Positions 9,044 through 27,160 of a stretch of 64,000 nt of DNA are shown in pieces. Numbering within the stretch: the stretch's first letter is position 1; each line of letters begins with the position of its first letter. This DNA is from Thermofilales archaeon (GTDB lineage Archaea; Thermoproteota; Thermoprotei; Thermofilales; Thermofilaceae): assembly GCA_028275925.1 (NCBI GenBank), contig JAPWTS010000002.1, positions 1 to 64,000 on the forward strand, in the 5' to 3' direction. A program made the translations under genes and the position numbers. The notes under the pieces were generated by a model that saw only the letters and a list, made by a program, of their open reading frames with translations, did no database searches and had not been told where the DNA came from.

Positions 9044-9675
9044 GCGAAGCCGGCGTGGACGAGGCGGGTAGGGGGCCGGCGATAGGCCCGCTCGTGGTAG
9101 CCTGCGTCGTCCTCGACAGCGCGGGCTTAGCCTTCCTCCGGGGCTACGTGAAGGATTCGAAGCTGCTCACCCCGCGCGCCCGCTCGCGGATCTACCGGCT
9201 GATAGAGGCGGCAGCCGAGGAGATCAAGCTGAAGGTTCTGGAGCCGCGCGAGGTGGATTGGGCTGTCGAAAACCTCCCCCGCGGGTTGAACGAGCTGGAA
9301 GCCGCTGCGACAGCCGAGCTGATCGACTCCCTCGAAAACCCTGTCGAGGTGGTTTACGTGGATTCGCCCGACCCCTTGCCGGGCAGGTACGCGGAGATGA
9401 TCAAGTCGCGCCTGCGCCGAGCCGGCGTAGAGGTGGTTGCGGCGAACCGCGCCGAGACGCTGTACCCGCACGTGGCAGCCGCGTCGATCGTGGCCAAGGT
9501 CGTGAGAGATGGAATCATCGAGGGGCTCAAAAGGGAGTACGGCGACTTCGGCTCGGGCTACCCCTCCGACCCGAAGACGAGGAGCTTCATCGAGAGGTTC
9601 CTCAGGGAGGGTGCCGAGCTCCCACCCATCGTGAGGAGGAGCTGGAAGACCCTCGACCGGCTCAAGCTGGGCTAG
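9040..9675 (+). CDS. rnhB: Ribonuclease HII
   Basis: 211 residues from GTG 9040, which overlaps the preceding stop codon. The N-terminal GVDEAGRGPAIGP motif supplies Asp7 and Glu8 of the four acidic metal ligands. YVDSPD (near residue 108) and ASIVAKVVRD (near 157) supply the other two, and GSGYPSDPKT is the type 2 signature near the C-terminus. The enzyme cleaves RNA in RNA/DNA hybrids and at single embedded ribonucleotides. A longer start at 8998 would overlap the GNAT gene by 46 bp and add residues before the usual N-terminus, so I reject it. The 3' end overlaps the convergent large gene by 4 bp. Confidence 0.95.
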   Translation: MSEAGVDEAGRGPAIGPLVVACVVLDSAGLAFLRGYVKDSKLLTPRARSRIYRLIEAAAEEIKLKVLEPREVDWAVENLPRGLNELEAAATAELIDSLENPVEVVYVDSPDPLPGRYAEMIKSRLRRAGVEVVAANRAETLYPHVAAASIVAKVVRDGIIEGLKREYGDFGSGYPSDPKTRSFIERFLREGAELPPIVRRSWKTLDRLKLG

Positions 9676-12600
9676 CCAGCCGGGCGAAGGAGCTTGTCCA
9701 CGCTCGCCTCCTCGACGCGCCCGTCCCTCAGGACGGAGACCCTCTTGCCCTCGAGCGCTGCGGCTAGCGCGAGCGCAGCGCTCAGGAGGCCGTCGTCGGA
9801 GTCGAGGGCGACGATGTCAGCTCTGGAAATCGCGGCCCTGACTTCGCTCACGAGCTCGTCGAGCGACGCGCCCTTGAAGGTGACGACCTCTATGGCTGGC
9901 GGCCTGAGGCCGAGGCTCCTAAGCCTGCTCCTGATCTCCCTGACCAAGCCGCCGTCCCCCCTCCTGCTGACGAGGATCACCAGCTGGGGGTGGTAGTGGC
10001 GCACTAGCTCGATCACGCTGCTCACGTCCGCTTTCACGGGAGCCAGCAGCCTGACGCGCGTCGACGCCCACTCGAGGACGATCCCCCTCACGAACGCCGC
10101 CACCTCCTGGACGTAGCTCTGCGAGAAGCGCGCGTAGACGGAAAGGGGTTTCACGAGCAGAGTGATGCCGTAGAATTCGCGGTCCACGGGCCTCAGCAGC
10201 AGGCGGGTTTGGGCGTTGAAGGGCCTCCCCCCTCCCTTGCTGTACGTGAAGCGTACCTCGTAGACCCGCGCCCCTCCTTCCGCGAGCTCGATCAGCGTTG
10301 CGCCGGTCACAGCCCTCTCGATGCCGTGCTCCTCCTCCCGCAGCCTCTCCACCAGGTACTCCGCGAAGTGGAGCGCCTTATCGGCCGGCACTCTGGCGGG
10401 GACCTCGACCTTCCACTCGCCGCCCACGACCTCCGCCTCAAGCCTCCACCTCCTGCTCAGCGACGGCGTCGCGTAGACGGAAGCCCTCAGGGCCGGCGCA
10501 ACCGCCGCTGCCACAGCCGAGAGCGTGGAGAGCGAGACGACGACCGCGAGATCCGCAACCCCGGTCTTCACGTCCACCGGAACCCGCGCGCCGGCGAGCT
10601 GAAGCGCTCGGAACGCCGCGACCCCCGCTAGGTAGCCGAGGGATCCGCCGACGAAGCCCAGCAGGAAGGCCTCGGAGAGGAAGACCAGGAAGATGTGCGT
10701 GGGGTTCATCCCCACCGACGCCATCGTGAAGATCTCCCTCCTCCTCTCGTAGACCGACGCCAGCACGACCGACGCCACGTTGAAGAACGCTAGAGCGATC
10801 GGGAGCAGCGCCTCCCAACCCCTGAACTCGACCCTCGATCCCACGAAGTAGACCCGCAGGAAATCGCCGGCCGGCCTCGCTGCTACCACGTACCCCGCCT
10901 GGAGCACCAGCCTCCTCGCCAAGCTCAGCAGGCTAGCGGGGCTCTCGGTTTTCGCGTAGACCCTCGTCACCCTCCCGCCCAGCTTCAGCGCCGCGCTGAC
11001 GGGTAAGAGCAGGATCTCGTCCGGGTGGGCGGGGCCCGAGCTCCCGTCCGGGTACAAGGCTTGAGGCAGGAAGTCGTAGCCGCCGATATCCCTCAGCCGC
11101 CCCAGCGCTGCCGGGTCGAAGAAGCCGGCGACCTCCAGCTTGACGCCGGACACCTCGATCGTGTCGCCCACGCTGACGCCCGCGCTCTTCCACGAGGCGC
11201 TCACTATCGCGACGTCGCTCCGGCTCGCCAGCGCTTCTAGAGCGCCTTCCGGCTCCACCGCTCCCGAGAGGTCCACGGGGAGGTAGCCGCCGACCGCCAG
11301 GAAGGCTCGAACCGCCCTGCCGGCGACGTAGGCGTAAGGTTCGCTGCGCGGCTGGCTTTCCACCCTCAACCCGAGCGCCTTCACTTCCGGCTGCGAGGAC
11401 ACGAAGAGCGCGTCGGCCAGCCCCATCCCCCTCTGGCTGAACGCTACGAGGGCGTTGTCGACGTTGGGAGGATTCCTAGCCGCCGTCACGAGCTCGCGCG
11501 CCGAGACCACGTAGCTCAGCGATGAGAGGCTGGTGACCGCCGCCGCCATTGCGGCGATCGAGAGGAGGACCAAGCCGGTGCGGAAGCCCCGCCTCCTGAG
11601 GTTCCTCGCGGCTATCGACAGCGCCGACGCAGCGGCGGCGAACACGGGGAGCCCCTTCTCGCTCCTCACCCCCTCGAGCAGGTGCGGGAGGAGGAGCAGC
11701 GCGACGAGAGCGAAGAAGCTCACGTATATGCTGAAGAACAGCTCCATCGCCCCGACCTCCGAGATGCCCGGGTACGTCAGGTAGATTAGGACCCCCAGCG
11801 CGACCAGGAGCGCGGCACCCACCGCCGGCCGCTTAGCGTCATCCTCGACGACAAGCGCCGTCAGGCCCAGGGACGAGAGGAGCACGAGGAGGAACAGGGC
11901 TGGGAGGCTGGCGGCTGCGCCCGCGTAGAGCTCGTTCAGCCGGGCTAGGGCGCTCTGCAGCAGGGAAACGGCTTCCTGCGAAAGGGCGGCGGCGAGCTCA
12001 GGCTGGCTGCTCTCGGCGGCGCTCGCGCTGTCCAGGAGCGCGCGCGCTTCCTCGATAAACTGCCTCGTCAAGCCGGCGTAGAAGCCCCTCCTCTCCACCC
12101 ACGACAGCCTCGCCCTAGCTTGGGACAGCGCTCTCAAGCCGGCCTCCAGCGAGCTCGCCGCAGCTCGCGATGCTAGCTCGGAGTCCACGTACACCTGGTC
12201 GGGGCTGGCGTTCAAGAGGCGCTCCAGCTGGAGGCTCCCGTCAACGTAGCACCTCAGGACGAGGGGGACGCCCGCCGGCACGACGAGCTCGTTCCCCTTC
12301 AAGCCGAGAGCGAGCAGGAGCTCGGGATCGTTCCACGAGTACCTCAGCACGTAGGGCCCCTTCAGCTCCGCGAGCGGCTCGATCTCCACCTCAAGCTTGG
12401 GCAAGCTCGAAGCCCCGGCTCTGGGCATGGGCGTCCTCAGGACGTAAAGCGCCCCCCTCACCAGCCTCAGCGAAAGGGTCGTAGTCCCCGGGGGCAGGGC
12501 GCCGAGATCTAGCAGCACCGGGACGTACACGGCGCCCTCCGCTCTGGGGCCGAGCACGACCGCTCTGGAGCCGGCGGGCAGCGTGAAGCTTAGCGTCGAC

Positions 12601-15083
12601 CCGTTGCTGCGGACGAGGAAGCTCGCCCTATCCGACCTCACGTAGAACGCGAGGGGCTGCCGGGCTCCCTCGAGCGTCACCACGACCCTGCTTGCCGGCT
12701 TCACCACGAACTCGAGCGAGTCCTCGTCGATCACGCGTCCCCCCACGTTTAAGCTGGCTCGCAGCTCGAGGAGGTGGGCGCCGTCGGTGTAGGCGGGAGC
12801 TTTGAACGAGAGCCTGTTCACCAGCACGGCCGGCTCGTCCGCGCGCGGCAGCTGCAGCTCGAGCCGGCCCGCGTCGAGCACCCCGCCCGTGTTGATGTCT
12901 ACGAGCTGCCATTCGACGACCGCGGGGCCCGACGCTTCGGCTGCGTCGTTGACGAGCCAGATCTCAGCCTTCAGGGTGGAGTTCGCTTCGAGGAGCACTC
13001 GGTAGCCGTCCACCGCGAAATCCCCACCCCACAGCAGGAGGACCTTCGTCGGCTTGAGCATTTCAGATGCAACCCGGTAAGCCAGCTTCGGCACGCCGAA
13101 GTAGTCGACGACGGAGAAGGAGACCGCTGGGAAGCAGTCCCTGAAGAGGAAGACCGCGAAGCCCGCGGTCGGGTTGAACTTGAGGGCTCGGTACCTGGCT
13201 ATGGCGGTCTTCAGCAGGAGAGCTTGATAGCGCTGGCTCGCCTCCACGTATTCGCGTAAGCTCGGGTACTCCTCGGGGAGACCGTAGGGGATCTTCACGT
13301 ACCCGCTCGCCCAGTAGAAGCCGTGATACGCCAGCTCGTAGTACCAACTGTCGCCCCTCCTCACCGGCCACTCGGGAGCGCCCACCGCGCTCCAGAAGGG
13401 CGAGTCAAGGGAGGGCAGGGATTGGGCCCCGAACTCCGTCGGGAAAGGCGACGCGTCCTTGAGGAAGTCCGTCCAGGAGCCGCTGAACCAGCCGTAGTAC
13501 ACGTGCTGGTCCTCGTACCCGCTCCCCCTTATCACGGGCCTCCTCTGGGAGTCCAGCGACTCGATGAGCGCCGCCAGCGCGTAGTCGAGGTCGCGGTTCA
13601 CCCCCCTCCTGTAGAGGTCGCCCATCCACTGGCTCGCCCAGGGCGGCTCGTTGTGAACCGCCCAGATCGCGACGCTCGGGTAGTTGTAGAGGAGGAGGAC
13701 CAGCTCCGCGTACTGAACCTGAACCCTCTCCATGAACCGGGCGTAGTCGGCCGGCCCCAGCTTGGACGCGTACGCCCAGATGAGGGGGCCGTCAGCCTGC
13801 ACCAGCAAGCCCATCTCGCTGGCGAGCTCGTAGAACTCGGCGGGCTCCACGTGCGCGTGAACCCTCACGAAGTTCGCACCGGCCTCGACCATCATCCTCA
13901 GGTCGCGCTCGAGGACAGCGCGCGTGGAGCGCACCGGGTAGAAGTCGCTCACGTAGTTGAAGCCCCTGAGGAAAACCCTCCGGCCGTTGAGCACGAAGCG
14001 CGCTTCATTGGGCGCCACGGCGCTGCCCTCGAGGGAGCGCACACCGAAAACCACTGAGCCCCTGCCCTGCAGAACCCCGCCAGCAACAACCTCGTACTCC
14101 AACCGGTAGAGGTGGGGCTTCCCCTGGTCCCACGTCCACCACAGCTCGGCGTCGGGCACGGTGATCGCGGCCTCCACCCACCTCCTCTCACCCCTGTCGA
14201 CCGCGAAGCTGAAGGAGCCCGTAGCGGCGCCCCCCTCGAAGTTGTGGGGTTTGACCGCGTACCGCACTTCGCAGCTGGCGGCTGGACCCCTGTTGGTCAC
14301 GTAGAGCCTCACCCTCAAGCTGGCTGAGCCGGTGGAGCCGTCGTAGCGGCTGTCGACCAGCACGGCGCTGACGGCGACGGGCCCGCTCACCGCGAGCACG
14401 ACGGGCTTCCAGAGCCCTATGGGCACGACCCACTCGTAGCGGGGCGGCAGCTTGCCGAGCGCCCAGCGCGGGTAGGGCTTCACGTCCCAGTCGTTGAATA
14501 TTCCCACAACCCCCTGCTTGTTGTCGAGGTCGAGCTCGACGGGCGTGGACAGGCAGACGACCAAGGTGTTGTTCCCCCCGTAGTTGAGCAGGTCGCCCAC
14601 GTCGAAGTAGAACGGCGCGAAGTACCCCTCGTGCTCGCCCAGGTAGACGCCGTTGAGCCACACGCTAGCCCTGTAGAACGCGCCGAGGAAGGCGAGCCTG
14701 ATCCTGTACCCGCGGAGCTCGCTCGGAACCTCGAAGTCCCTCCTCAACCAGATCGTCGAGTTCCTGGAAGTCGCCGCGAACATGAATGGGACGTCGACCG
14801 CGCTCCAGCCGTCGAGCGGCGCGTCCGGCCTATACAGCTCCTCCAGAACCCCCTCCTCGTAGCCCTTCACGATGTAGCGCCACCGCCCGCTGAGGTCCAG
14901 CGTGCTTAAGGCGAAGAGGTCGGGCTGGGTGAAGCGCTCGAGAGCTTTCGCCACGGCGTCGGGCTCCGCCCGGACGAACCCCTTGTTGAGCTCGGGCAGA
15001 GCCAGCACGAACAGCGCCAGTGCTACTACGGCAGCGCTCGCGAGCGCGCTAGCCCTCAGGGAGATTCCACGCGATTGAGCCAT
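9672..15083 (-). CDS. Giant membrane fusion: glycoside hydrolase family 2 enzyme + FtsX/MacB-type permease + cytosolic domain
   Basis: 1803 residues in one unbroken frame. Order: signal anchor (about 10-30); GH2 sugar-binding jelly roll (WLRRDFEVP, ASVWLNGVYLGEHEGYFAPF), Ig-like domain and TIM barrel, with acid/base Glu479 in VHNEPP and nucleophile Glu550 in FPTEFG, up to about 640; further beta domains (650-960); an Ala-rich helical spacer (965-1060); three membrane segments; then an FtsX/MacB permease core (about 1165-1540) with ERRREIFTMASVGMNP (near 1445) as the ATPase-coupling segment; and a cytosolic C-terminus (1545-1803). Positive-inside charges place the GH2 part outside. GH2 enzymes cleave beta-galactosides, mannosides or glucuronides. 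The ABC ATPase partner is not in the window. ATG 15083 is chosen because a TATA-like ctaaatag lies about 27 bp upstream; a GTG at 15158 would lie upstream of that promoter. 4-bp overlap with rnhB. Confidence 0.85.
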   Translation of the reverse strand: MAQSRGISLRASALASAAVVALALFVLALPELNKGFVRAEPDAVAKALERFTQPDLFALSTLDLSGRWRYIVKGYEEGVLEELYRPDAPLDGWSAVDVPFMFAATSRNSTIWLRRDFEVPSELRGYRIRLAFLGAFYRASVWLNGVYLGEHEGYFAPFYFDVGDLLNYGGNNTLVVCLSTPVELDLDNKQGVVGIFNDWDVKPYPRWALGKLPPRYEWVVPIGLWKPVVLAVSGPVAVSAVLVDSRYDGSTGSASLRVRLYVTNRGPAASCEVRYAVKPHNFEGGAATGSFSFAVDRGERRWVEAAITVPDAELWWTWDQGKPHLYRLEYEVVAGGVLQGRGSVVFGVRSLEGSAVAPNEARFVLNGRRVFLRGFNYVSDFYPVRSTRAVLERDLRMMVEAGANFVRVHAHVEPAEFYELASEMGLLVQADGPLIWAYASKLGPADYARFMERVQVQYAELVLLLYNYPSVAIWAVHNEPPWASQWMGDLYRRGVNRDLDYALAALIESLDSQRRPVIRGSGYEDQHVYYGWFSGSWTDFLKDASPFPTEFGAQSLPSLDSPFWSAVGAPEWPVRRGDSWYYELAYHGFYWASGYVKIPYGLPEEYPSLREYVEASQRYQALLLKTAIARYRALKFNPTAGFAVFLFRDCFPAVSFSVVDYFGVPKLAYRVASEMLKPTKVLLLWGGDFAVDGYRVLLEANSTLKAEIWLVNDAAEASGPAVVEWQLVDINTGGVLDAGRLELQLPRADEPAVLVNRLSFKAPAYTDGAHLLELRASLNVGGRVIDEDSLEFVVKPASRVVVTLEGARQPLAFYVRSDRASFLVRSNGSTLSFTLPAGSRAVVLGPRAEGAVYVPVLLDLGALPPGTTTLSLRLVRGALYVLRTPMPRAGASSLPKLEVEIEPLAELKGPYVLRYSWNDPELLLALGLKGNELVVPAGVPLVLRCYVDGSLQLERLLNASPDQVYVDSELASRAAASSLEAGLRALSQARARLSWVERRGFYAGLTRQFIEEARALLDSASAAESSQPELAAALSQEAVSLLQSALARLNELYAGAAASLPALFLLVLLSSLGLTALVVEDDAKRPAVGAALLVALGVLIYLTYPGISEVGAMELFFSIYVSFFALVALLLLPHLLEGVRSEKGLPVFAAAASALSIAARNLRRRGFRTGLVLLSIAAMAAAVTSLSSLSYVVSARELVTAARNPPNVDNALVAFSQRGMGLADALFVSSQPEVKALGLRVESQPRSEPYAYVAGRAVRAFLAVGGYLPVDLSGAVEPEGALEALASRSDVAIVSASWKSAGVSVGDTIEVSGVKLEVAGFFDPAALGRLRDIGGYDFLPQALYPDGSSGPAHPDEILLLPVSAALKLGGRVTRVYAKTESPASLLSLARRLVLQAGYVVAARPAGDFLRVYFVGSRVEFRGWEALLPIALAFFNVASVVLASVYERRREIFTMASVGMNPTHIFLVFLSEAFLLGFVGGSLGYLAGVAAFRALQLAGARVPVDVKTGVADLAVVVSLSTLSAVAAAVAPALRASVYATPSLSRRWRLEAEVVGGEWKVEVPARVPADKALHFAEYLVERLREEEHGIERAVTGATLIELAEGGARVYEVRFTYSKGGGRPFNAQTRLLLRPVDREFYGITLLVKPLSVYARFSQSYVQEVAAFVRGIVLEWASTRVRLLAPVKADVSSVIELVRHYHPQLVILVSRRGDGGLVREIRSRLRSLGLRPPAIEVVTFKGASLDELVSEVRAAISRADIVALDSDDGLLSAALALAAALEGKRVSVLRDGRVEEASVDKLLRPAG

Positions 15084-15143: not shown

Positions 15144-15165
15144 TCTCGCGGAGCACACGCTCCGC

Positions 15166-16398
15166 GTGAAAGCGGACCTCGTGGAGGAGCTGGTCCGCCT
15201 GGTGAGGGTGCGCTCCGAGGTCTACGTCACCGAGACGGGTGCTGTGAAGCGGTGCAACTACAGGGAGGCCGCGGAAGCGGTGAAGGGGTTGGCCGAAAGG
15301 CTGGGGCTGAGCGCCGAGCTCGTAGAGCTCGAGGTCGGCGGGGAGAAGGTCCCGGCCGTGATCGCGGGGATCGACGGCGGGGGGCAGAGCTTGGCTTTCG
15401 TGAGCCACTACGACGTGGTCCCCGCCAGGGGTCCCTGGCTCGTTGAGGGGCGAGCCTTCGACCCCTTCGACCCCCTAGTGCTCGGCGGCAGGGTCTACGG
15501 GAGGGGGGCTGCCGACGACAAGTCCGCGATCGTCGCCAGCTTAGCGGCTCTCGCGGAGCTCGCCGAGGAAGGGGGGCCCCTGAAGTACAAGCCCGTGGTC
15601 GTCGTAACGGGGGACGAGGAGGTAGGGGGGCTCGGCGTCAGAGCGCTGCTGGGCAGCGGCTACAGGTGGGATAAGGCCGTGATACTGGACGCCGGCGCCG
15701 AGTACCTGTCGGTGGGCGCCAGCGGCGTCGCGTTCGGTTGGGTGAAGGTGAGGGGTAGGTCCGGCCACGCCGGCTACCCCCACAAAGCGGTGAACCCTGT
15801 GGAGGGGGCGATCAAGCTGGCCTACCACATGCTGGAAACCTACAAGCCGCGCAGAGCCGCGAAGCTGTCTAAGCTCAGCGCGCCGCCCGGCTCCCCGCTG
15901 CCCAAGGTTTGGGGGCGCTTCAGCTTCACGATAATGAAGCTGGCGCCGGGCGAGCCGGAGAAGCACAACAGGATACCCGGCGAGGCGATGCTGGGCTTCG
16001 ATGTCAGGCTGCTGCCCGAGGAGGACCTCGATGAGGCGCTCGCCGAGCTGTACGCCCACTTCTCGGAGGCCGCAGCCAAGCTGGGTTTGGACATCGAGGT
16101 TGCGGCGCAGGGCCAGCGGGGGTGGTACGCTAAGGACGAGGGTTTCGTGCGCGAAGCCCTCGAGGCGGCGCGGGGAGCGTACAGGTCGGTCGGCCTCGAG
16201 GGGGAGGTCGCGGTTGCGGCGGAGCTCGGCGGTAACGATGGCACGTTCTTCGACGCGGCGGGCATACCGGTCGTGGCCTTTGGGGCGATCAGGAGCGAGT
16301 GCAACGTGCACTCCGAGAACGAGTTCGTCTACGCCCGCGACCTCGCGATGCTGAAGGAGTTCGTGAAGCTGCTGGCGAGGGGTGGCAAGCGTGGGTGA
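15166..16398 (+). CDS. M20 family metallopeptidase (ArgE/DapE/acylase-like)
   Basis: 410 residues. Metal ligands are visible in order: His81 and Asp83 in SHYDVVPA, Asp117 in GRGAADDKSA, the catalytic and ligand pair Glu151-Glu152 in GDEEVGG, an Asp in VILDAGAEY, and a final His in NVHSENEF. The lid domain starts near WVKVRGRSGHAGYPH. These dizinc enzymes hydrolyse amide bonds of N-acyl amino acids or dipeptides; the substrate cannot be read from the sequence. In archaea relatives include succinyl- or acetyl-amino acid deacylases. GTG start with a TATA-like box 27 bp upstream; the end overlaps pyrG, suggesting a shared transcript. Confidence 0.85.
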   Translation: MKADLVEELVRLVRVRSEVYVTETGAVKRCNYREAAEAVKGLAERLGLSAELVELEVGGEKVPAVIAGIDGGGQSLAFVSHYDVVPARGPWLVEGRAFDPFDPLVLGGRVYGRGAADDKSAIVASLAALAELAEEGGPLKYKPVVVVTGDEEVGGLGVRALLGSGYRWDKAVILDAGAEYLSVGASGVAFGWVKVRGRSGHAGYPHKAVNPVEGAIKLAYHMLETYKPRRAAKLSKLSAPPGSPLPKVWGRFSFTIMKLAPGEPEKHNRIPGEAMLGFDVRLLPEEDLDEALAELYAHFSEAAAKLGLDIEVAAQGQRGWYAKDEGFVREALEAARGAYRSVGLEGEVAVAAELGGNDGTFFDAAGIPVVAFGAIRSECNVHSENEFVYARDLAMLKEFVKLLARGGKRG

Positions 16399-18121
16399 CG
16401 CGAGGCAGACACGCTACGTTTTCGTCACCGGGGGCGTGCTGAGCGGGATCGGGAAGGGCGTCGTGTCGGCTTCCATCGCCAAGCTGTTCCAGCTGAGGGG
16501 CTACAAGGTCGACATGATAAAGATCGACCCCTACCTGAACGTGGACCCGGGGACTCTCAACCCGATCGAGCACGGCGAGGTCTTCGTCTGCGAGGACGTG
16601 TGGGTCTTCGAGCCGGCTCCCGGCTACCGCTTCACGATCGCCGAGATCGACCAGGACTTCGGCACGTACGAGAGGTTCCTGGACGTGAACATGCACCCCT
16701 CGAACAACATCACGTCGGGCCAGGTGTACCTCACGGTGATCCTGAGGGAGAGGAGCGGCGAGTACCTGGGTAAAACGATTCAAGTGATCCCGCACGTGAC
16801 CGACGAGATCAAGCGCCGGATTAGGATGGTCGCCGAGCGGAGCAAGCCGGACGTGTTGGTCGTCGAAGTCGGCGGTACTGTGGGCGACATAGAGGCTATG
16901 CCGTTCCTCGAGGCGATCAGGCAGTTCAGGCTCGAGTCCCCGCCCGGCGCGACCGCGCTCGTCCACGTGACCCTGGTGCCCTACCTGAAGACCGTGGGGC
17001 AGCAGAAGACGAAGCCCACCCAGCACAGCGTGAGGGAGCTGCAGAGCATGGGCCTCCAGCCCGACGTGATCATCGGGAGGTCGGAAACCTACTTGACGGA
17101 GGACGTCAAACGCAAGATAAGCCTCTTCTGCAACGTGCCCGAGGAAGCCGTTATCTCCGACCCCGACCTCGACGTCGTGTACGAGCTTCCGCTCGTGTTC
17201 GAGAGGCAGGGCCTGGGGCGCTACCTCGTCAGGCTGCTCCGCCTGGAGCGGGAGGACCCGGTACCCCACGCGGTGGAGGAGTGGGAGAACCTGGTTTGGA
17301 GGTACAAGCACCCGGCGGATAAGGTCGTGATAGCGATGCCGGGCAAGTACACGATGATCCAGGACAGCTACATCAGCATCTGCGAGGCGCTGAAGCACGC
17401 GGCCGCCCACCTCGGCTTAGGGGTCGAAATCAGGTACATCGATTCCTCGAAGTTCGAGGAAGATCCCGGCTTGATGGACGAAGAGCTGGGCAGGGCTGAC
17501 GGCATCCTGCTCACGCCGGGCTTCGGGTCAAGGGGCGTGGAGGGCATGATACAAGCCGCCCGCTACGCGATCGAGCACGATAAAGTCTTCCTGGGCATAT
17601 GCTTCGGAGCTCAGCTCCTCTTCATAGCGTTCTGCAGGTACGTCATGGGGCTCAGGGGAGCGCACTCGACCGAGATAGACCCCTCAACCCCCTACCCGGT
17701 CGTCGACCTCCTCCCCGAACAGCGGGGCGTGACGGCGAAAGGGGGCACGATGAGGTTAGGCGCTCACGAGGTGCACATAGCGGAGGGCACGCGGCTCTAC
17801 GAGGCGTACAGCGCGAAGGTCGTGAGGGAGAGGTTCAGGCACCGCTACCACATAATCAAGGACTACGCGCTGATGGGGGAGAAGCACGGCTTGAAAGTGT
17901 CGGCCACCGACGCCGATGGGAGGATAGTCAACGCCATCGAGCTGAGCTCGGCGAGGTGGATCGTCGGCGTCCAGTTCCACCCGGAGTTCAAGAGCAGAGC
18001 CCTCAGACCGTCCCCCGTGTACGTAGCCTTCGTGAGGGCCGCTTACGAGGCGAAGCGCGCGCGCACCCACATCCCGCCCCTCATCCCAGCGTCGGAGCGC
18101 GTGAGCTCAAGCTCGCGCTAG
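16391..18121 (+). CDS. pyrG: CTP synthase
   Basis: 576 residues. The N-terminal synthase domain starts [16 protein letters not shown] and contains the UTP/CTP-binding signatures ([30 protein letters not shown]). The C-terminal class I glutaminase domain has the nucleophile Cys in GICFGAQLL and the His-Glu pair in VQFHPEF. It makes CTP from UTP, ATP and glutamine, the last pyrimidine step. GTG 16391 is chosen to give the standard short N-terminus; GTG 16382 would add three residues. Either overlaps the M20 gene. Confidence 0.97.
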
Positions 18122-18172
18122 CGCAACGTTTAAGCGAGCTTTCCGCGAGGGGCTCGCGGTGGACCCTACATT

Positions 18173-19588
18173 GTGTTGCGGGTATTCAACACGCTGGGTC
18201 GGAAGCTTGAGGTTTTCGAGCCGGTAAACCCCGGTAGGGTTGCGATCTACGTGTGCGGCCCCACGGTTTACGACCACACCCACCTCGGGCACGCTAGAAC
18301 GTACGTCGCGTTCGATGTGATCAAGCGCTACCTGAAGCTGCTCGGTTACGACGTCTTCCACGTCCAGAACATAACCGACATCGACGACAAAATCATCAGG
18401 CGGGCGGCGGAGGAGGGGGTGAGCTGGAGGGACGTCGCCGACGCGTACACGAGGGACTACCTCGACGCTCTCTCGAAGCTGAACATCAGAGTGGACCTCC
18501 ACCCGCGCGTGACCGAGCACATAAGCGAAATCATACGCTTCGTTCAGGCGCTCATCGAGAGGGGGCACGCGTACGTGGCGCCCAGCGGCAGCGTGTACTT
18601 CGACGTGGACAGCTACGAGGGTTACGGCGAGCTCAGCGGTAGGCTAGCGCGCGAGCTGTGGGGTCAGGAGCAGGAGGTTGTGAAGGAGAAGAAGAACCCT
18701 TACGACTTCGCGCTGTGGAAGGCTGCGAAGCCGGGGGAGCCGTGGTGGGAGAGCCCGTGGGGTCCGGGGCGGCCGGGCTGGCACATAGAGTGCAGCGCCA
18801 TGTCGACGCTCTACCTGGGCGAGCAGTTCGACATCCACGGCGGAGGCAGCGACCTCATATTCCCCCACCACGAGAACGAGAGGGCTCAGAGCGAGAGCGC
18901 GCTGGGCAAGCGCCCCTGGGTCAAGTACTGGCTCCACACGGGCATGCTCACGGTGAGGGGCGAGAAGATGTCGAAGAGCTTGGGCAACATCGTGTCCCTG
19001 AAGGAGGCCTTCTCCAAGTGGAAGCCCGAGGTTGTGAGGTTGTGGCTTGCCACCGTCCACTACAGGAGCGTAGTCGATTTCTCCGAGGAAGCGCTCCACC
19101 AAGCGCAGCGAAACTACGAGAGGCTGATCGCGGCGGCGAAGACCCTGCGCGACCTGCTGCGCAAGGGTGAGTACAGCTTCAGGTTGAACGAGGAGGGGCG
19201 CTCGCTGCTCGGCAAGATGGACGAGCTGAGGAGGGGCTTCTACGCCGCGATGGACGACGATTTCAACGTCAGCAAGGCCTTCAGCTACGTGTACGAGCTG
19301 ACATCGCTCGTATTCTCGCGCATCGCCGAGAAGCCCGAGGGCGCGGTCGTCCTCAGGGCTTACGCGCTGATGGAGGAGTTCAACAGGGTCCTCGGCGTGC
19401 TCGACGGCTTGTTCGCGGGAGGTCCGCCGCTGCCCTTCGAGCAGCTGGTGGAGTTGATCGTGGAGGTTAGGAGGAAGCTCAGGCTCTCCAGAAACTACGA
19501 GCTGGCCGACTGGATCCGCGCGGAGATGGCCAAGCTGGGGATAAAACTCTACGACCGGGGCGAAGAAACCGCCTGGCAGCTAGCGTGA
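18173..19588 (+). CDS. cysS: Cysteinyl-tRNA synthetase
   Basis: 471 residues, usual length. Class I signatures are HLGH in THLGHARTY and KMSKS in EKMSKSLGN (near 266-270). Zinc ligands are expected at Cys28 (VCGPTVYDH), the Cys in HIECSAMS and the His/Glu of HHENER. It activates cysteine and charges tRNA-Cys. GTG start; a TATA-like gtttaag near 18127 lies about 40 bp upstream, with a short leader containing GGTGG, so this gene may be leadered rather than leaderless. The 3' end overlaps the convergent ROK kinase by 9 bp. Confidence 0.97.
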
Positions 19589-20566
19589 GCGCTTGATGGG
19601 CAGCTCCTCGAGCCCGAGCGCCAGCGCGATAGCGCCGTAGAGGCCCACGTCGTCGCCGAGCGGCGTAACGGTGATCTCTGGAACCCTGTTCACCGCGTAC
19701 TCGTGGACCATCTTCTTCAACGGCTCCACCACGAGCTCCACGTTGTTAAGCGCTACCGAGCCCCCCACCGTGATGAGCGACGGATCGTAGACGTTGACCA
19801 CGTTGGCTACGCCCATCGCGTTGTACCTCGCCGCCTCCTCCACGACCGCTCTAGCGAACGCGTCCCCCGCCTTCGCCGCGTCGTACACGTCCTTCGACGT
19901 CAGCCTCAGGGGATCGCCCTTACTCGCGAGCACGCTGCGCTCGAAGAGACCGGGGTTCTCCTCCGCCAGCAGCTTGGCCAGCTTCGGGATGCCGGTTCCC
20001 GACGAGTAGGCTTCCCAGTGCCCCCTCCTGCCGCAGCCGCACACAAGCTTGCCTTCGGCGTCCACCACCATGTGCCCGATCTCGTGCGCGTTGCCGTCCT
20101 TACCGAGGAGCACGCGCCCATCGACGTACACGCCCCCGCCTATCCCCGTGCTGATCGTGATGTAGACCAGGTTGTCGTGGTCGCACCCGGCCCCCATGTG
20201 CTTCTCCCCTATGACGGCTGCCACGCAGTCGTTAACTAAGTACGTGGTCACTCCGAACTCGCTCTCCAGCGGCTCGACGATGGGGACGTTCTCCAGCGGG
20301 AGGTTCGCAGCCTTCACGATCACCCCCCGCTTAACGTCAAGGGGGCCTATCGAGCCGACGCCTATGCCTCTCAAATCCCTCTCGGACCCCCCGACCCTTT
20401 TCAGCAGCATCCTAATGGCACTCGCGATCGAGGCGGGCACGGCCTCCCTGCTGCTCCTAGGCGTCTCGAACTTCGCGCGGTCGAGGATCCTACCCTTCTC
20501 GTCCGCGAGCACGACCCGCGTGTACGTGGCTCCTATATCCACGCCGGCTACTAGGCCCGCGCCCAC
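19580..20566 (-). CDS. ROK family sugar kinase (glucokinase-like)
   Basis: 328 residues. The phosphate-binding loop is DIGATYTR (10-17); the second sugar and phosphate site holds [19 protein letters not shown] and the Cys-rich [15 protein letters not shown] are the ROK zinc and signature motifs, and LVNDC supplies the catalytic Asp. Archaeal ROK kinases phosphorylate glucose and often other hexoses or N-acetyl sugars with ATP. With GH1 and GH2 glycosidases in the window, a role in using released hexoses is reasonable inference. GTG start with a TATA-like box (aaaccttaag on the minus strand, about 20590-20600) roughly 30 bp upstream. No HTH domain, so it is an enzyme and not a ROK repressor. 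Confidence 0.9.
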
Positions 20567-20655
20567 GCGCGTGCGTGCCGCCGCGCGCTCTTAAGGTTTA
20601 CCGGTGCAGCGATCGTCGGCGTAAGCGCTATTACACCCCCGTCCCCCTTCACCTC

Positions 20656-21483
20656 GTGGTAGGCAAGATAACGGTCTACGTGTGCCAGGAGCCGGCTCAC
20701 GAGGAGCTGATCGAAACCCTCAAGAGCGTTGTGGACAGCATCAAAGGTAAGAAGCCGAAAATTAAAGTTGTGAGGTTGAAGCTGAGAAGCTCCGAGGACT
20801 TCCCGTACTACCTCAAGACGCTGGAGGAGCTTTACGGAGGAATCGCGACGGCCGAGTACAGGAAGTACGGAGTGCGAAGCTTACCAGCGATAGTTTACAA
20901 CGGGAGAGCGATACTCCAGGGGAAAGTGCCCACGCGGGAGGAGATCGAGGAAGCGTTAGCGTTTGAGGGGCTCAAGGTGGTGAGAAAAACGCCCGCGGTT
21001 CAGCCGGCGCCTCAGCTCGCCACTCAGGTCGTACAGCCCAAGCGGCCGGCGGAGGTCCCGCGCATCGAGCTTCGTATAAAGGACGTGCCGCCGGCCGGCC
21101 GAGCTTCGCCGCGCGCGACCGAGCTCCAAAGGCCGACCAGCGAAGCTCCCGCGCCGGCGATCGCGCAGCGTTTCGAGCAGCCGCTCGCGAAACCGGCTAC
21201 GCAAAGCGCGTCCGAACCGATTCGCCGTGAACCTGAGCGGGCGATCCCCCAGCCGGCGCCGCCTCCTAAACGCGAGGCGGCTGCTGCGCGGTTCCCCCCG
21301 GTCGAGGTGGAGGAGGTCAGCGTCGAGGCGCGCGCCGAGACCGCGAGAGCGGCCCAAGCTCGCCCCATCGCCGGGAAGAGGTGCGACGAGTGCATCTTCT
21401 ACGAAAGAGGGACAATGCGCTGCCTTCTGTACAGGGTTCCGGTCGCGGATCCCTCGAAGCCGCCCTGCTCGCGCCGCCCCTAG
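20656..21483 (+). CDS. Thioredoxin-fold protein with a disordered Pro/Ala linker and a C-terminal four-Cys cluster
   Basis: About 275 residues from GTG 20656, which lies 25 bp after a TATA-like ctattac (about 20628-20634); an upstream start at 20575 would run through both promoters. The N-terminal 90 residues look like a thioredoxin or glutaredoxin fold: KITVYVCQEPAHEE, a helix, then YGVRSLPAIVYNGRAILQGKVP with the cis-Pro loop. The redox Cys pair is missing (CQEPAH). A long low-complexity Pro/Ala/Arg/Glu segment follows. The C-terminus has Cys spaced C-x2-C-x9-C-x14-C (CDECIFYERG...C...C), able to bind zinc or a Fe-S cluster. Function unknown. Confidence 0.7.
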   Translation: MVGKITVYVCQEPAHEELIETLKSVVDSIKGKKPKIKVVRLKLRSSEDFPYYLKTLEELYGGIATAEYRKYGVRSLPAIVYNGRAILQGKVPTREEIEEALAFEGLKVVRKTPAVQPAPQLATQVVQPKRPAEVPRIELRIKDVPPAGRASPRATELQRPTSEAPAPAIAQRFEQPLAKPATQSASEPIRREPERAIPQPAPPPKREAAAARFPPVEVEEVSVEARAETARAAQARPIAGKRCDECIFYERGTMRCLLYRVPVADPSKPPCSRRP

Positions 21484-22547
21484 GAACTCCGTTGAGCTTT
21501 TCGGTGGCAGGCTTCGGCGAGCAGCTGCCTGAGGCTGAACCGGCTTGAAACCGACGGGTCGCGCTCAGCGCAGTGGTGCTCGAAAGTCCACGCGTACTCG
21601 GCGGCGAGATCCAGCTTGCTCTCCCCCACGCCGAGCTCGGGGAGCGTGGGAACCGACGAGAACCCTCCGGTGAACTCCTCGAGCAAAAGCGCCGCCCTGC
21701 GGTACGCGTCAGCCGCGGGTGACCCCTCGACAGCGCGCGAGGCAGCTGTTACCCAGGCTCTGGCGAGCGCGAGCTCGGCAGCGTAGGGGTCTACGCCGAA
21801 GACGGAGAAGAGGGCTCTAGCGAGCGAGGAGAGAGCCGAGCACAGCGAGTGCCCGCGCGCCAGCGCGGCGTAGACCGCCGCCTCGAAGAGGGCTTGGGCG
21901 TCTGCCACCGACGACCCGCGTAACGACCGTTCCAGCCTTTCCACTGCCGCTTCGGCTAGCAGGAGGATGAACCTGTTCCTCCAACCGACGGCCAGGGCCT
22001 CGAGCGTGCTGACGAGCGCTTCTGCGGCGAGAGCTTTCTCGAGATCCCTGCCGAGCGGCAACCCCGTGTCTACGAAGATCGCGGCTGGCGGTTTCAGCGG
22101 CTTCGAGGGGCCCACGTACCCGCGCGGCTGCACGGTCATTCTGCTAAAGGCTTCAGCGAAGCCTGGGGGCGCCGGTACCGCGACGAGCTCGGTTCCGCAG
22201 CGCGCGCTTAAAACCTTGGATAAGGCGAGCGCAGGCCAGCACCCCAGCGCTACCACCGCTCTGGCTCGGCGCGAAAGCCCAACCGCCAGCTCGACCGCCC
22301 CAACCCTGTAGGCTTCGGGGTGGACGAGCAGCATGCCCCACTTCACCCGCGCCGCTGATAAGCTCTCGCAAACCTCGTCCAGCGCGCTCTTCCAAGCGGC
22401 GTCGCTAACCACGAGCAGCGCCTCCCTCACCCCCATCGCCGAAAGCTCGAGACCCAGCGCGCTGACAACCCCCTTGCCGACGGAAACCTTGGCCGGAAAG
22501 TCGATCTCAATCCTTGCCACACGGTTCCAAGCTCCCGACGCTTTCAA
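21480..22547 (-). CDS. Degenerate iron-containing alcohol dehydrogenase-fold protein
   Basis: About 355 residues. The overall pattern follows the Fe-ADH/glycerol dehydrogenase superfamily: an N-terminal FPAKVSVGKGVVSALG strand-turn, a Rossmann-like half, then LKPPAAIFVDTGL and an all-helical C-terminal half with GHSLCSALSSL. The nucleotide-binding GGGS and the usual metal-binding Asp and His residues are absent or changed (VPAPPGFAEAF, AAEALVSTLEALA), so it may be inactive or bind something else. The assignment rests on pattern only. The first candidate start is TTG 22547; GTG 22520 (ARIEIDFP...) is equally possible. The 3' end overlaps the preceding convergent gene by 4 bp. Confidence 0.5.
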   Translation of the reverse strand: MKASGAWNRVARIEIDFPAKVSVGKGVVSALGLELSAMGVREALLVVSDAAWKSALDEVCESLSAARVKWGMLLVHPEAYRVGAVELAVGLSRRARAVVALGCWPALALSKVLSARCGTELVAVPAPPGFAEAFSRMTVQPRGYVGPSKPLKPPAAIFVDTGLPLGRDLEKALAAEALVSTLEALAVGWRNRFILLLAEAAVERLERSLRGSSVADAQALFEAAVYAALARGHSLCSALSSLARALFSVFGVDPYAAELALARAWVTAASRAVEGSPAADAYRRAALLLEEFTGGFSSVPTLPELGVGESKLDLAAEYAWTFEHHCAERDPSVSSRFSLRQLLAEACHRKAQRSS

Positions 22548-22774: not shown

Positions 22775-25081
22775 GTGAAGCTCCGCGCAGGGTTGCTGCT
22801 CGAGCTAACGGCGCTGCTCGCCGTGCTAGCCTTCGCCCTGCTTTCGGTCAAAACGTTCTTCAGGGAGGGGATCCCTCCCGGCTGGGACCACCCTCCGCAC
22901 CTCGTGTGCTCCTACCTCACCTCCGAGTTCTTCCTCCCCCAGCTGACGGTCTTGGGGTGGGACCCCTACAACAACTTCGGCTGGGTTTTCAACCAGTTCT
23001 ACAACCCTGGCGCCTACCTCCTGGTCGCGGCGATCCGCTACGCGTCCCTCAAGTTCTTGGACATCGTCTCGTCCTACAAGCTCGCTCTCGTTGTCACGTA
23101 CGTGCTTCCGGCGGTCGGCGCCTTCTATCTGGCCAAGGCGATGGGCGGCGGGCTGCCTGCAGCGGCTTTCGCGGCGTTGTTCTCGGTTGTCGTGACGCCT
23201 TACGAGTCGGAGTGGCTGGACGCCGGGCTCAAGCAGCTCTACTACATCGGAATGTGGCCGGAGAGGCTGGGCATAGGTTTCGCGCTCCTCGCCCTCGCGG
23301 CCGAGTGGACCGCGCTGAGCAGGAGGGGGCGGGCGCGGCTGAGGTTGGCCTCGCTCTCCGCCGTGCTGGGCGCCGCCACCGTCCTGAGCCACCTGATGAC
23401 CGGAATCGCCCTCCTCATGGCCGAAGCGCTCGTAGCCGCGGTCTTCGCTTTGAAGCGGTTCGTAGGCCAGGAGGGCGGTTTAAGGGCTAGCGCGGCTCTC
23501 GTGCTGCCCGCGCTAGCGTGGGACGCGGCGGCTTTCGCGGTGTCCGCTGGGGGCGCGCTGGGGCTCCTCGCCTTCTGGATCGTCCCCCTGTCGTTGACAA
23601 ACTGGGAGTACCACAACCTGCCGACCATCACCTGGTACGTCGGCCCCTGGGGCGTGCGCGCGTTCCTCGGGTCGCTGGGACCCCTCGCCACAGCCCTCCT
23701 CGTGGTCTCGATCGCCGCCTCGTGCGCCTCCGCGAAGCGGGATCGCGCGCCAGTCGCCGCGGCGGCCGCCGCATCGGCGCTGCTCATGTGGGCCGTCTCC
23801 GCCGCGTCCCCGCTGGACGGCTACGTAGGCTTGCGCCTCACGTCAGCTTCGCTTCTCTTCGCGCTAGCGGCCGTGCTCAGCGAGAGACCCGGCGCCGCCG
23901 CCTTAGCTTCGGTCATCTCCCTGCTGCTGGTGGTCGCGACCGGGCCCGACTCCTTCAGGTTCAAGGTGCTGTGGTGGGAGGTGAACCTCGGAAGGCTGCT
24001 GCCCTTCAGCGAAAATTACGCGTACTACAAGTTCGCGGGGTTGGCGAGGTACGCCGCGTTCACGGCGGCGGCTCTGGGAGCGTCCGCCCCCCTGGCGAAA
24101 GCGCACTCCCTCGTGCGGAAGCTCAAGGGCTCGGAAGCCCAGCTCGGCTACGTCGGCGTCGGCGTGGCCGCGCTGCTGCTCGTGGCCGCTACCGTGGAAC
24201 CGCACTTCCGGCTGACCGACTTCTACTACCCCTACTCGGAGACCCTAATCTTCAAGATGGACGCCGACTTCCCGGGGACCGCGAAGCTCGTCAGGATCAT
24301 GGAGTGGGTGCGGGAGAACGTGCCGGAGAACACCTACGTTTTCTACCAAGATACGCTCTGGAAGCTCGGGGACTGGAGCTACCTGCCCGTCTCCCACTAC
24401 TTCTACCTCTCGTCGATGCTCACGGGGAAGCCGCAGGTGGGCGGCGGCTTCGGCACGAGGTACATCACCCACCCGCTAGCCAACACGGAAGCCGACCACC
24501 TGCTCGGCCAACCCATTTCCTGGCTCGCCCAGCGGCCGGAAAGGGTTTACGCCATCGCGAGGGAGCTCGGTATAAGCTACTTCGTGATCTTCGACCAGGC
24601 TCTCGCCGCCGCCATGAGGTCCAGGCCCGACCTATTCGAGGAGGTTTACGCAGAACCCCCCTTCCACGTCTTCAGGACCACCACCTTTAACGCGATAGCG
24701 AGCATCGACTCCGGAGAGGTCCTGCAGGCAAAGTTCGAGCCGAACAGGATCGTCGTCGTGTACAGAGCCAGCAACGCCACCGTCGTCAGGATCCGGCAGG
24801 TGCTCTACCCGGGCTGGCGGGCCTCCGTCGGCGGCCGCGAGGTCCCCCTGGAGCGCTACTACCCAGACATCCCCTCTTACGTGTGGGTTCCCGGGGACGG
24901 CGTGATCGCCAACTACCGCGTACCGTTCATCGCGGTCCGCGTACCGCCCGGCGAGCACGCGCTCGTCCTGACCTACCGGGTGTCCACGTGGGGCGACGCT
25001 GTCAGCGCAACCACGCTAGCGGCGCTGCTCCTCCTCAACGCGGTGCCTGCGGCCTTGAAGTTGGCACGGCGGCGCTTTTAG
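22775..25081 (+). CDS. Polytopic GT-C-like membrane protein (PTPS-related family)
   Basis: 768 residues with about ten or more hydrophobic helices over the first 460 residues and a soluble C-terminal domain ending in another helix (SATTLAALLLLNAVPAALKL). The first extracellular loop after TM1 has GWDHPPHLV, an acidic motif position typical of GT-C fold transferases, followed by YNNFGWVFNQFYNPGAY. The C-terminal half has NVPENTYVFYQ and a beta-rich PGWRASVGG ectodomain, as in archaeal membrane proteins annotated as 6-pyruvoyl-tetrahydropterin synthase related. A role in lipid-linked sugar transfer to proteins is inference. The GTG start lies 26 bp from a TATA-like gcttttta (22745-22752). Confidence 0.7.
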   Translation: MKLRAGLLLELTALLAVLAFALLSVKTFFREGIPPGWDHPPHLVCSYLTSEFFLPQLTVLGWDPYNNFGWVFNQFYNPGAYLLVAAIRYASLKFLDIVSSYKLALVVTYVLPAVGAFYLAKAMGGGLPAAAFAALFSVVVTPYESEWLDAGLKQLYYIGMWPERLGIGFALLALAAEWTALSRRGRARLRLASLSAVLGAATVLSHLMTGIALLMAEALVAAVFALKRFVGQEGGLRASAALVLPALAWDAAAFAVSAGGALGLLAFWIVPLSLTNWEYHNLPTITWYVGPWGVRAFLGSLGPLATALLVVSIAASCASAKRDRAPVAAAAAASALLMWAVSAASPLDGYVGLRLTSASLLFALAAVLSERPGAAALASVISLLLVVATGPDSFRFKVLWWEVNLGRLLPFSENYAYYKFAGLARYAAFTAAALGASAPLAKAHSLVRKLKGSEAQLGYVGVGVAALLLVAATVEPHFRLTDFYYPYSETLIFKMDADFPGTAKLVRIMEWVRENVPENTYVFYQDTLWKLGDWSYLPVSHYFYLSSMLTGKPQVGGGFGTRYITHPLANTEADHLLGQPISWLAQRPERVYAIARELGISYFVIFDQALAAAMRSRPDLFEEVYAEPPFHVFRTTTFNAIASIDSGEVLQAKFEPNRIVVVYRASNATVVRIRQVLYPGWRASVGGREVPLERYYPDIPSYVWVPGDGVIANYRVPFIAVRVPPGEHALVLTYRVSTWGDAVSATTLAALLLLNAVPAALKLARRRF

Positions 25082-25156: not shown

Positions 25157-27160
25157 ATGAGGTGTTCCGTAGCAGCGTTGCTCGTCGCCGCCTCTTTGAG
25201 CGCGATCGCGCTGGCTCAACCCCTGGTCACGAGCGCGGGAGCAACCGACGTCACCGCCCTCGGTTCCTCGCTGTTCTTAGCGCTGGAGAACGGTACGGTG
25301 GTTTCCCTAGATGGAGGCCTGAGGTGGAGCTTCAGCACGTCCGACTACGGCTCCCCCGTGCACCTCGAAGCCGCGCCGCCTTACGGCCTGATCGTGCTCA
25401 CGGATAGGGCTTGGCTCGGGCTCCTCGCTCTCGACGGGCGCATCTCCTGGCTCAAGCTCACCCTAGACCCCAACTCGATCAAACCGACAACCTCGGGTTT
25501 GGTTTACGCCAACGGCACAGCTCTGGTGCACGCCGGTGCGAGCGCGGTGCTCGTCAGCGTGCCGGCGCTGAGAGTGGTCTGGACCCGCAGCATCCTTAAC
25601 AGGTTCACAGACTACTCCCTGAGCCCGAGCGGCAGCGCCGCGCTGCTCGCCGGCTTCAACACGCTGTGCTATGTCTGCGTCTCAAACGATGAGAAGATCG
25701 TCGTGGTGCACGACATCAAGAGTGACAGAGATCTCTTCTCGACAACTACGCCCGTACCGCACTTGAAGACTGCATCGGTGCTGTGGCGCAGCAACTGGTT
25801 GGTGCTCGTTCAATGGGACGCCGTCAGGGCATACGATTTGGCTGCAATGAACCTGAGCTCCCCGGTTAAGACCTACACCCTACCGCACCCGCACGATAAG
25901 TGGATCAGCTACGGCTTCTCCCCCAGCGGCGGGCTGTTCCACTACACCTGCGCTGAGGGGGAGGGGCTGAGCGTTTACGTACTGGACATCGAAAGAGGGG
26001 TCTCAAAGCGCGTTGCAATACCCATCCCGGCTGGGAAGAGGGTGGTGTCGCAGCTCGGCGACGATTGGAAGCTGGCTGTTGCCAGCTACGATCCAACGTC
26101 GGGCGTGACCTACTGCGCTCTCGTCGACGCGGCGACGGGAGAGGTGCGCACGGAAAAGCTCGGCCCAACGAGCCCCAGCGTGAGGCTCAAGCTGCTGGGC
26201 GGAACTGCCGCCGTGATCGCTGGCGGCGAGCTGGTGACAGTACCCAGGCAGCAGACCGCGCAGCAAAGCGGGGGGGCGCCGGCAGTGTACTCTGTGACGG
26301 TGAAGGTGGTCGATGACGCTGGCGCTCCCCTGCAGGGGGCGCTCGTGTGCGCGAACTCCACGTGCGCGACGACAGACGCGGGCGGAACCGCGGCGTTTGA
26401 GCTGGCTCGAGGCCTGTACGTGCTGGAGGTGACCCACCAGCTCGCCGAACCCCGCAAGGTCTTGCTCCCCGTTTCGGGCAACCTCACGGTACCCCTGACC
26501 GTAACCAGGCTCTTCGCACTAACCGTAAGCGGAACGCTCGGAGATGGAGGCCGCCCGCCCTCCTGCTACATCGCGCTCGTAGCTGCAAATCGATCGCAGA
26601 ACGTGACGGCGCTCAACTGCACTGCCAGCTTCCGGGTGCCGCGAGGATCCTACAGAGTCGTTCTGCAGCACGGCAGCCAGAGGGTTGAGCGGAGCGTAGA
26701 GGTGAGGGGCGACACGGTCGTGCTCGTCCAGCTGGGAGGGGGGCCGGTGAAGCTTTCGGTAGCGGCGTTTAACGCGAGTGGGAGCCCCCTGCCTAACGCC
26801 GTGATCACGGTGCTCAGCGATGGCGGCGAAAAGGTCGCCTCGCTCTCAGGTAGCGGGGAAATCTCGGTCAAGCCCGGGCGCTACGCAATCCGGGTCGAGG
26901 CCCCAGGCTACGCTAACTGGAGCGCGGTTGTGGAAGTTGTTGGGGACGCGCAGCTGAGAGCCGTACTCGAGCCGACCCCCAACCCCCGCGCTGCACGAGC
27001 ACTAGGGCTGACAGAGCTCATTGCTGCGGTGGCGGCGTCCGGCGCCGCGGGCGCGCTAGCCGGTGCACTCTGCGCAACGCTGGGGTACTGCTCAGCTGCG
27101 CACGCGCAGAAGCTCAGGCGCCTGAAAACGTTCCGGGCCACGAAAAAAGAGAGCGGTTAA
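25157..27160 (+). CDS. Secreted, membrane-tethered protein with a beta-propeller and three Ig-like repeats
   Basis: 667 residues: signal peptide (1-20, AALLVAASLSAIALAQ), a propeller-like N-terminal half (about 25-365; blades such as VTALGSSLFLALENGTVVSL), then three carboxypeptidase-regulatory or Ig-like repeats (about 375-610; YSVTVKVVDDAGAPLQGALV, LFALTVSGTLGDG, VKLSVAAFNASGSPLPNAV), a C-terminal membrane helix and a Lys/Arg-rich cytosolic tail. Cys pairs (CYVC, CANSTC) suggest disulfides. Such proteins are common on crenarchaeal surfaces; binding partner unknown. ATG start about 27 bp after a TATA-like cccttatc. GC content and codon use are somewhat lower than in its neighbours. The stop overlaps prs by 4 bp. 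Confidence 0.7.
   Translation: MRCSVAALLVAASLSAIALAQPLVTSAGATDVTALGSSLFLALENGTVVSLDGGLRWSFSTSDYGSPVHLEAAPPYGLIVLTDRAWLGLLALDGRISWLKLTLDPNSIKPTTSGLVYANGTALVHAGASAVLVSVPALRVVWTRSILNRFTDYSLSPSGSAALLAGFNTLCYVCVSNDEKIVVVHDIKSDRDLFSTTTPVPHLKTASVLWRSNWLVLVQWDAVRAYDLAAMNLSSPVKTYTLPHPHDKWISYGFSPSGGLFHYTCAEGEGLSVYVLDIERGVSKRVAIPIPAGKRVVSQLGDDWKLAVASYDPTSGVTYCALVDAATGEVRTEKLGPTSPSVRLKLLGGTAAVIAGGELVTVPRQQTAQQSGGAPAVYSVTVKVVDDAGAPLQGALVCANSTCATTDAGGTAAFELARGLYVLEVTHQLAEPRKVLLPVSGNLTVPLTVTRLFALTVSGTLGDGGRPPSCYIALVAANRSQNVTALNCTASFRVPRGSYRVVLQHGSQRVERSVEVRGDTVVLVQLGGGPVKLSVAAFNASGSPLPNAVITVLSDGGEKVASLSGSGEISVKPGRYAIRVEAPGYANWSAVVEVVGDAQLRAVLEPTPNPRAARALGLTELIAAVAASGAAGALAGALCATLGYCSAAHAQKLRRLKTFRATKKESG

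Follow-up and report, generated by a model that had tools for sequence, protein, structure and literature searches.

An ancient fusion of a GH2 glycosidase to an FtsX/MacB-type permease in several archaeal families, with ATPases probably supplied in trans

Introduction

We analysed a 64,000-nt stretch of a Thermofilales archaeon (positions 1 to 64,000 of contig JAPWTS010000002.1, assembly GCA_028275925.1; hereafter the window), in which one gene encodes a GH2 glycosidase joined to an FtsX/MacB-type ATP-binding cassette (ABC) permease. The fusion and its domains are conserved in several archaeal families, distant orthologues have lost their catalytic residues, particular genes recur beside it, and giant FtsX proteins of this class co-occur with an ATPase module encoded elsewhere. 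The strongest new points, both drawn from comparison of sequences, are that the ATPase module appears to be encoded in trans and is probably shared, and that catalysis seems to have been lost in the distant orthologues. Our preferred reading, held with modest confidence, is that the fusion serves as the large permease subunit in an ABC complex of type VII (MacB/LolCDE/FtsEX-like), in which ATPases acting in trans would move the GH2 exodomain on a surface glycan. Genomes, loci and families are referred to below by G, L and f numbers, respectively.

Results

The GH2-FtsX protein and its orthologues

An earlier first-pass annotation of the same sequence had described a single uninterrupted frame of 1803 residues, without naming the strand; this was borne out, and the minus strand carries the gene (Table 1), with a GTG at 15158 as a possible longer start. 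The GH2 sugar-binding, Ig-like and TIM-barrel domains follow each other in this order over residues 106–513, each above the curated Pfam cut-off, and the best solved relative is the beta-mannosidase 5n6u, aligned over the barrel. Both catalytic glutamates named by that annotation, Glu479 (in HNEP) and Glu550 (in TEFG), are present. The FtsX Pfam model matched residues 1429–1534 with 55.7 bits against a cut-off of 25.5, and MacB_PCD stayed below its cut-off in the window protein (24.4 against 27 bits) and exceeded it in several relatives. The permease core has four helices with an extracellular domain after the first, which is the layout of type VII ABC systems (MacB/LolCE/FtsX). No ABC_tran match was found in the protein by Pfam, so the MacB arrangement with an N-terminal ATPase on the same chain does not apply; the equivalog models for the cell-division FtsX reached 16 against 225 bits or worse. 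In the AlphaFold model of residues 690–1560 (mean pLDDT 82.5), both the beta domains and the permease helices were present; three additional membrane helices stand ahead of the standard core, and an unbroken helix (residues 1028–1078) connected the first of them with the stalk. Foldseek matched this model best to MacB and then to LolCDE, with a heme exporter and YbbAP lower. Hence the beta domains, the helical spacer and the permease with its ERRREIF segment, as listed by the first-pass annotation, were seen again in Pfam, the AlphaFold model, Foldseek and the sequence, and the structure prediction proposed there gave a stalk and a MacB/LolCDE-like permease, but its list had overlooked the C-terminal domain of residues 1540–1803.

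Fourteen full-length or near-full-length copies were found in 13 genomes of four families, the window included. Identity to the window protein was 59–63% in G001, G002, G006 and G007, 40% in G030, and about 31–34% in G086, G094, G101, G115, G122, G129 (two copies) and G148; the copy in G086 is cut by a contig end and that in G122 is split over contigs. Because the same full-length fusion is present in independent genomes, a chance joining, an assembly chimera or a frameshift can be ruled out; the observations that had been named as fatal to the fusion, namely homologues always encoded as separate genes and an assembly join near 11.6–12.0 kb, are themselves overturned by these orthologues. Copies occur patchily, also between closely related genomes, and G003, of the same genus as the window, shows no copy. 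A scan of genome contigs for bacterial homologues of the whole fusion, made with a few peptide patterns only, found GH2 halves alone. We found no earlier account of covalent GH2-FtsX or M28-FtsX fusions in the open-licence literature searched, in keeping with the earlier remark that no characterised example was known.

In the permease tree, all GH2-bearing giants fell on one side of a branch (support 91/82) and all M28-bearing giants on another (99/86), as counted over labelled rows only. In the tree of GH2 domains, the fused domains clustered apart from stand-alone GH2 proteins (99/99), and the single row labelled as alone inside the fused cluster is G122's own truncated fusion. The fusion is ancient, and a single fusion event is the simplest reading of these trees. 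A second, divergent GH2-FtsX giant of 1694 aa is present in G101 (L126, 6659–11743); it matches the GH2 sugar-binding and Ig-like domains, and not the TIM barrel.

Loss of the catalytic residues in distant orthologues

HNEP and TEFG are intact in all five copies of the window's family. In G030 the acid/base residue is gone, with HERAPW in place of HNEPPW, and SEFG is kept; in all f20 and f30 copies both glutamates are lost. Nevertheless the GH2 regions 51–250 and 361–690 of the f20 and f30 copies share 35–39% identity with the window protein, a level similar to that of the C-terminal domain and higher than that of the extracellular permease domain (26–28%). Retention of the fold despite loss of the glutamates argues that it is under constraint without catalysis in these families, and glycan binding would be the parsimonious function retained. 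The catalytic state would be ancestral, because nearly all stand-alone GH2 proteins in the tree carry the motifs. ATP-gated hydrolysis, which the first-pass annotation had suggested, does not hold as the general function: with both glutamates absent from two families and the acid/base residue from G030, it cannot be the whole story, since the GH2 part of the distant proteins could only bind. Presentation at the surface, also suggested there, would fit better, for a domain that binds or cleaves glycan, and release of the enzyme found no support.

ATPases supplied in trans

A conserved LolD/MacB-type ATPase gene had been expected beside the homologues, and none was a conserved neighbour in the orthologue loci read. 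Among its ABC ATPases, the window's genome encodes two of MacB/LolD type with the motif DEPTGNLD, for both of which the best NCBIfam match was LolD, followed by MacB. One adjoins a 211-residue FtsX half-permease (L114), and the other is an orphan between the ABCE1 and THUMP genes (L113). These contexts largely recur in relatives: the half-permease stands beside one ATPase in most loci read, and the second ATPase, with ABCE1 or THUMP genes as neighbours, usually has no permease next to it.

Across 398 genomes, 62 had both an ATPase orthologue (at least 62% identity, or at least 84% for a contig-edge fragment) and a giant FtsX (E no higher than 1e-13), 5 had the ATPase without a giant (two of these less than 50% complete), 3 had a giant without the ATPase and 328 had neither, with few candidates per genome scored (Fisher p about 1e-62). 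By family, about 24 had both, one each was discordant in either direction and 41 had neither, the total being taken as 67 from the labels seen. Moreover, the two are present or absent together inside f1, where both are missing from genus g7, and inside f16. Giant, ATPase and half-permease are adjacent in G251 and G367, and the half-permease stands in tandem with both ATPases in G119, G213 and G359, in the first two of which an M28 giant lies no more than about 10 kb away. Such tandems near an M28-FtsX giant were recorded at L176 (15505–17570) and L177 (2770–4834). Co-occurrence of the ATPase pair with the giants suggests that several giants probably share one ATPase module, which would provide ATP in trans; thus the earlier claim that a cytosolic ABC ATPase drives the permease finds support, except that the ATPase is not encoded next door.

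The cytosolic C-terminal domain

Residues 1540–1803 come after the final membrane helix, which should place them in the cytosol; AlphaFold gave them two parts (pLDDT 84). Profile searches showed that the first part (1540–1680) is common to many giant FtsX proteins of about 1000 residues and that the second (1681–1803) occurs in a subset, and in G020 the C-terminal domain is a separate downstream gene (L054, 9854–10669). The top Foldseek matches of this domain were mostly CARF proteins (Csa3, Cam1, Can2, Csm6 and ring nucleases), with an E value of 1.9e-5 for Csa3, a probability of 1.00 for Csa3, Cam1, Can2 and Csm6, and about 125 residues aligned; other Rossmann folds were lower. Because no CARF family was matched in the Pfam or PDB profile searches, we describe the subdomain as CARF-like by predicted fold only. 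Cas10 was found in 4 of the 13 orthologue genomes, and none was found in the window's genome; signalling by cyclic oligoadenylate through this tail is thus not favoured, because Cas10 is mostly absent.

Other enzyme-permease giants

Ten matches to FtsX were counted in the window's genome, of which eight are in long open frames. Besides GH2, giants carry an M28 peptidase (L042, L117, L118 and L176, about 1480–1640 residues), a transglutaminase core (L052, 7447–11502, 1351 residues, in G030) or no recognised enzyme, and two M28-FtsX fusions are in the window's own genome (L042, 10162–15093; L117, 2512–6972). The M28-FtsX giants often adjoin membrane proteins of about 640–700 residues, one of which matches DUF6785, a family that we take to be peptide-transporter-like. 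We tentatively propose, as an idea that may well need revision, that a shared motor of two LolD/MacB-type ATPases and the half-permease could drive interchangeable giants as an energised surface-enzyme platform, whose payload would be GH2, M28, transglutaminase or none, some with a CARF-like sensor.

Neighbouring genes

The divergent neighbour of the fusion, a 768-aa membrane protein, has many invariant columns across 11 orthologues. It touches the fusion gene in G001, and in the window a block at 15166–22547 separates the two; this block holds six genes (an M20-type peptidase, CTP synthase, CysRS, a ROK-type gene and two others, named by eye) and is absent there in G001. No Pfam, NCBIfam or PDB profile matched the 768-aa protein; a YfhO match below threshold (E 0.12) led to the guess of a GT-C-type glycosyltransferase, which was not adopted. 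The 667-aa protein that follows gave weak S-layer SlaB and carboxypeptidase-regulatory matches. In the f20 loci, the 768-aa-type gene is followed by a UbiA prenyltransferase resembling decaprenyl-phosphate phosphoribosyltransferase, and UbiA is apparently next in G030 as well (by eye); G101 is without the conserved neighbour pair. Taken together, the neighbours suggest surface glycan assembly. Elsewhere in the window, the product of 34778–36265 has an N-terminus that looks, by eye, like a GH1 beta-glycosidase.

Table 1. Positions in the window of the GH2-FtsX gene, its parts and two neighbouring genes
Feature	Position	Strand	Basis
GH2-FtsX giant protein, 1803 aa	9672..15083	-	Open frame (ATG 15083, stop 9672) and orthologues
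N-terminal hydrophobic segment, residues 14-34, signal peptide or anchor	14982..15044	-	Sequence; retained in orthologues
GH2 sugar-binding domain, about residues 61-230	14394..14903	-	Pfam PF02837/PF22666 over 106-187; PDB match 5n6u
GH2 Ig-like domain, residues 238-349	14037..14372	-	Pfam PF00703
GH2 TIM barrel, residues 360-690	13014..14006	-	Pfam PF02836; aligned to beta-mannosidase 5n6u
Glu479 codon	13647-13649	-	Within GH2 TIM barrel
Glu550 codon	13434-13436	-	Within GH2 TIM barrel
Beta-sandwich domains, residues 691-965	12189..13013	-	AlphaFold model
Helical stalk, residues 969-1058	11910..12179	-	AlphaFold model; last helix continues into first permease-side membrane helix
Three extra membrane helices, residues 1059-1138	11670..11909	-	AlphaFold model and hydrophobic sequence
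MacB/FtsX-type permease core and extracellular domain, residues 1147-1553	10425..11645	-	Pfam, Foldseek
YERRREIF ATPase-coupling segment, residues 1445-1452	10728..10751	-	YER-EI conserved in orthologues covering the segment
C-terminal subdomain 1, residues 1540-1680	10044..10466	-	Profile search; common to many giant FtsX proteins
CARF-like Rossmann subdomain, residues 1681-1803, SDDG motif 1762-1765	9675..10043	-	Foldseek
768-aa membrane protein, divergent neighbour	22775..25081	+	11 orthologous loci, window included
667-aa probable secreted beta-domain protein	25157..27160	+	After the 768-aa gene in closest relatives

Discussion

In the type VII complex that we favour, the coupling segment of the giant would be bound by cytosolic ATPases of MacB/LolD type whose genes lie elsewhere, probably in company with the half-permease of about 210 residues. 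ATP binding and hydrolysis would then shift the membrane helices, and the continuous stalk would relay this movement to the GH2 exodomain, which would bind a glycan, either lipid-linked or on the cell surface, that the neighbouring membrane protein and the prenyltransferase would produce. In the window's family the exodomain could also cleave the glycan, and in the distant families it would bind only; the CARF-like cytosolic domain would probably let an internal ligand tune the cycle. Complex formation, mechanical coupling, the glycan substrate and ligand sensing are the steps that we infer. Several points weigh against this scheme. What links the ATPases to the fusion is comparative co-occurrence, this co-occurrence concerns the giants as a class and not the GH2 giant alone, and the genomes are related and not independent. 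The ATPase threshold was chosen after the bimodal identities had been seen (at least 62% versus at most 57%), and three genomes have giants without the ATPase. Moreover, the proposed glycan substrate rests on gene neighbours, of which the 768-aa protein is of no recognised family.

Other explanations share part of this evidence. The permease might pull a polyprenyl- or lipid-linked glycan from the outer leaflet to the GH2 domain, which would trim or hold it; the prenyltransferase adjoining the conserved 768-aa membrane protein, the YbbAP-TesA precedent (PMC12646458) and the Foldseek matches to LolCDE and YbbAP are consistent with such extraction, but in the genus of the window no UbiA gene adjoins the fusion, and we consider such extraction possible but doubtful. 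Cell-bound glycosidases have been reported in Thermofilum (PMC6965361), and together with the intact catalytic residues in the window's family and the DUF6785 membrane protein beside M28 relatives, they would suit a nutritional enzyme feeding on external polysaccharide, with the permease half as a relic anchor. However, few regions are as well conserved as the FtsX core, which keeps its coupling segment, distant orthologues lose the catalytic residues yet keep the permease, and the giants co-occur with ATPases, all of which makes a relic anchor unlikely. Similarly improbable, in our view, is a GH2 receptor from which the permease would relay glycan occupancy to the CARF-like domain inside the cell, catalysis being incidental: the pseudoenzymes of f20 and f30, the CARF-like domain itself and its separate-gene copy in G020 would fit such a sensor, whereas no downstream effector is known and many giants are without the CARF-like half.

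Type VII ABC systems act on partner proteins by mechanotransmission, and YbbAP-TesA of Escherichia coli pairs one of them with a hydrolase (PMC12646458). The closest working analogues of the fusion are YbbAP-TesA and the FtsEX-hydrolase systems. Like the fusion, YbbAP-TesA joins a type VII permease (fold match 9ge7) to an extracytoplasmic hydrolase, but TesA, which hydrolyses lipids, is a protein of its own and the system has a dedicated ATPase, whereas here GH2 is on the permease chain and the ATPase is elsewhere. FtsEX with EnvC-AmiA/B, RipC, CwlO or PcsB is thought to pass ATP-driven movement to a polymer-cleaving enzyme, as proposed here, although its partners are non-covalent and its polymer is bacterial peptidoglycan, unlike the covalent archaeal fusion. 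MacB and LolCDE share the fold of the permease core, and LolD and MacB are also the best matches of the co-occurring ATPases; however, the MacB chain includes its own ATPase, LolCDE lacks an enzyme domain, the fusion differs on both counts, and its GH2 domain, extra three-helix set and CARF-like tail are found in neither. The beta-mannosidase-like GH2 enzymes (5n6u and 2je8) share the three GH2 domains and both glutamates with the window protein, but they are not fused to a permease, and the distant fusion orthologues are pseudoenzymes. In ECF transporters, one energising module is shared by many membrane subunits, and the giants apparently resemble them in this respect; we infer the sharing, and no homology to the S or T components is expected.

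Known type VII ABC machines act on extracytoplasmic partners that are separate from them. With enzyme and permease joined covalently, the coupling geometry would be fixed and the coupling would become testable in one chain; the fusion has been kept in several archaeal families, in some of which the enzyme is now a pseudoenzyme. Archaeal envelopes are poorly understood, and the co-occurring ATPase module suggests that one motor may serve many archaeal surface enzymes.

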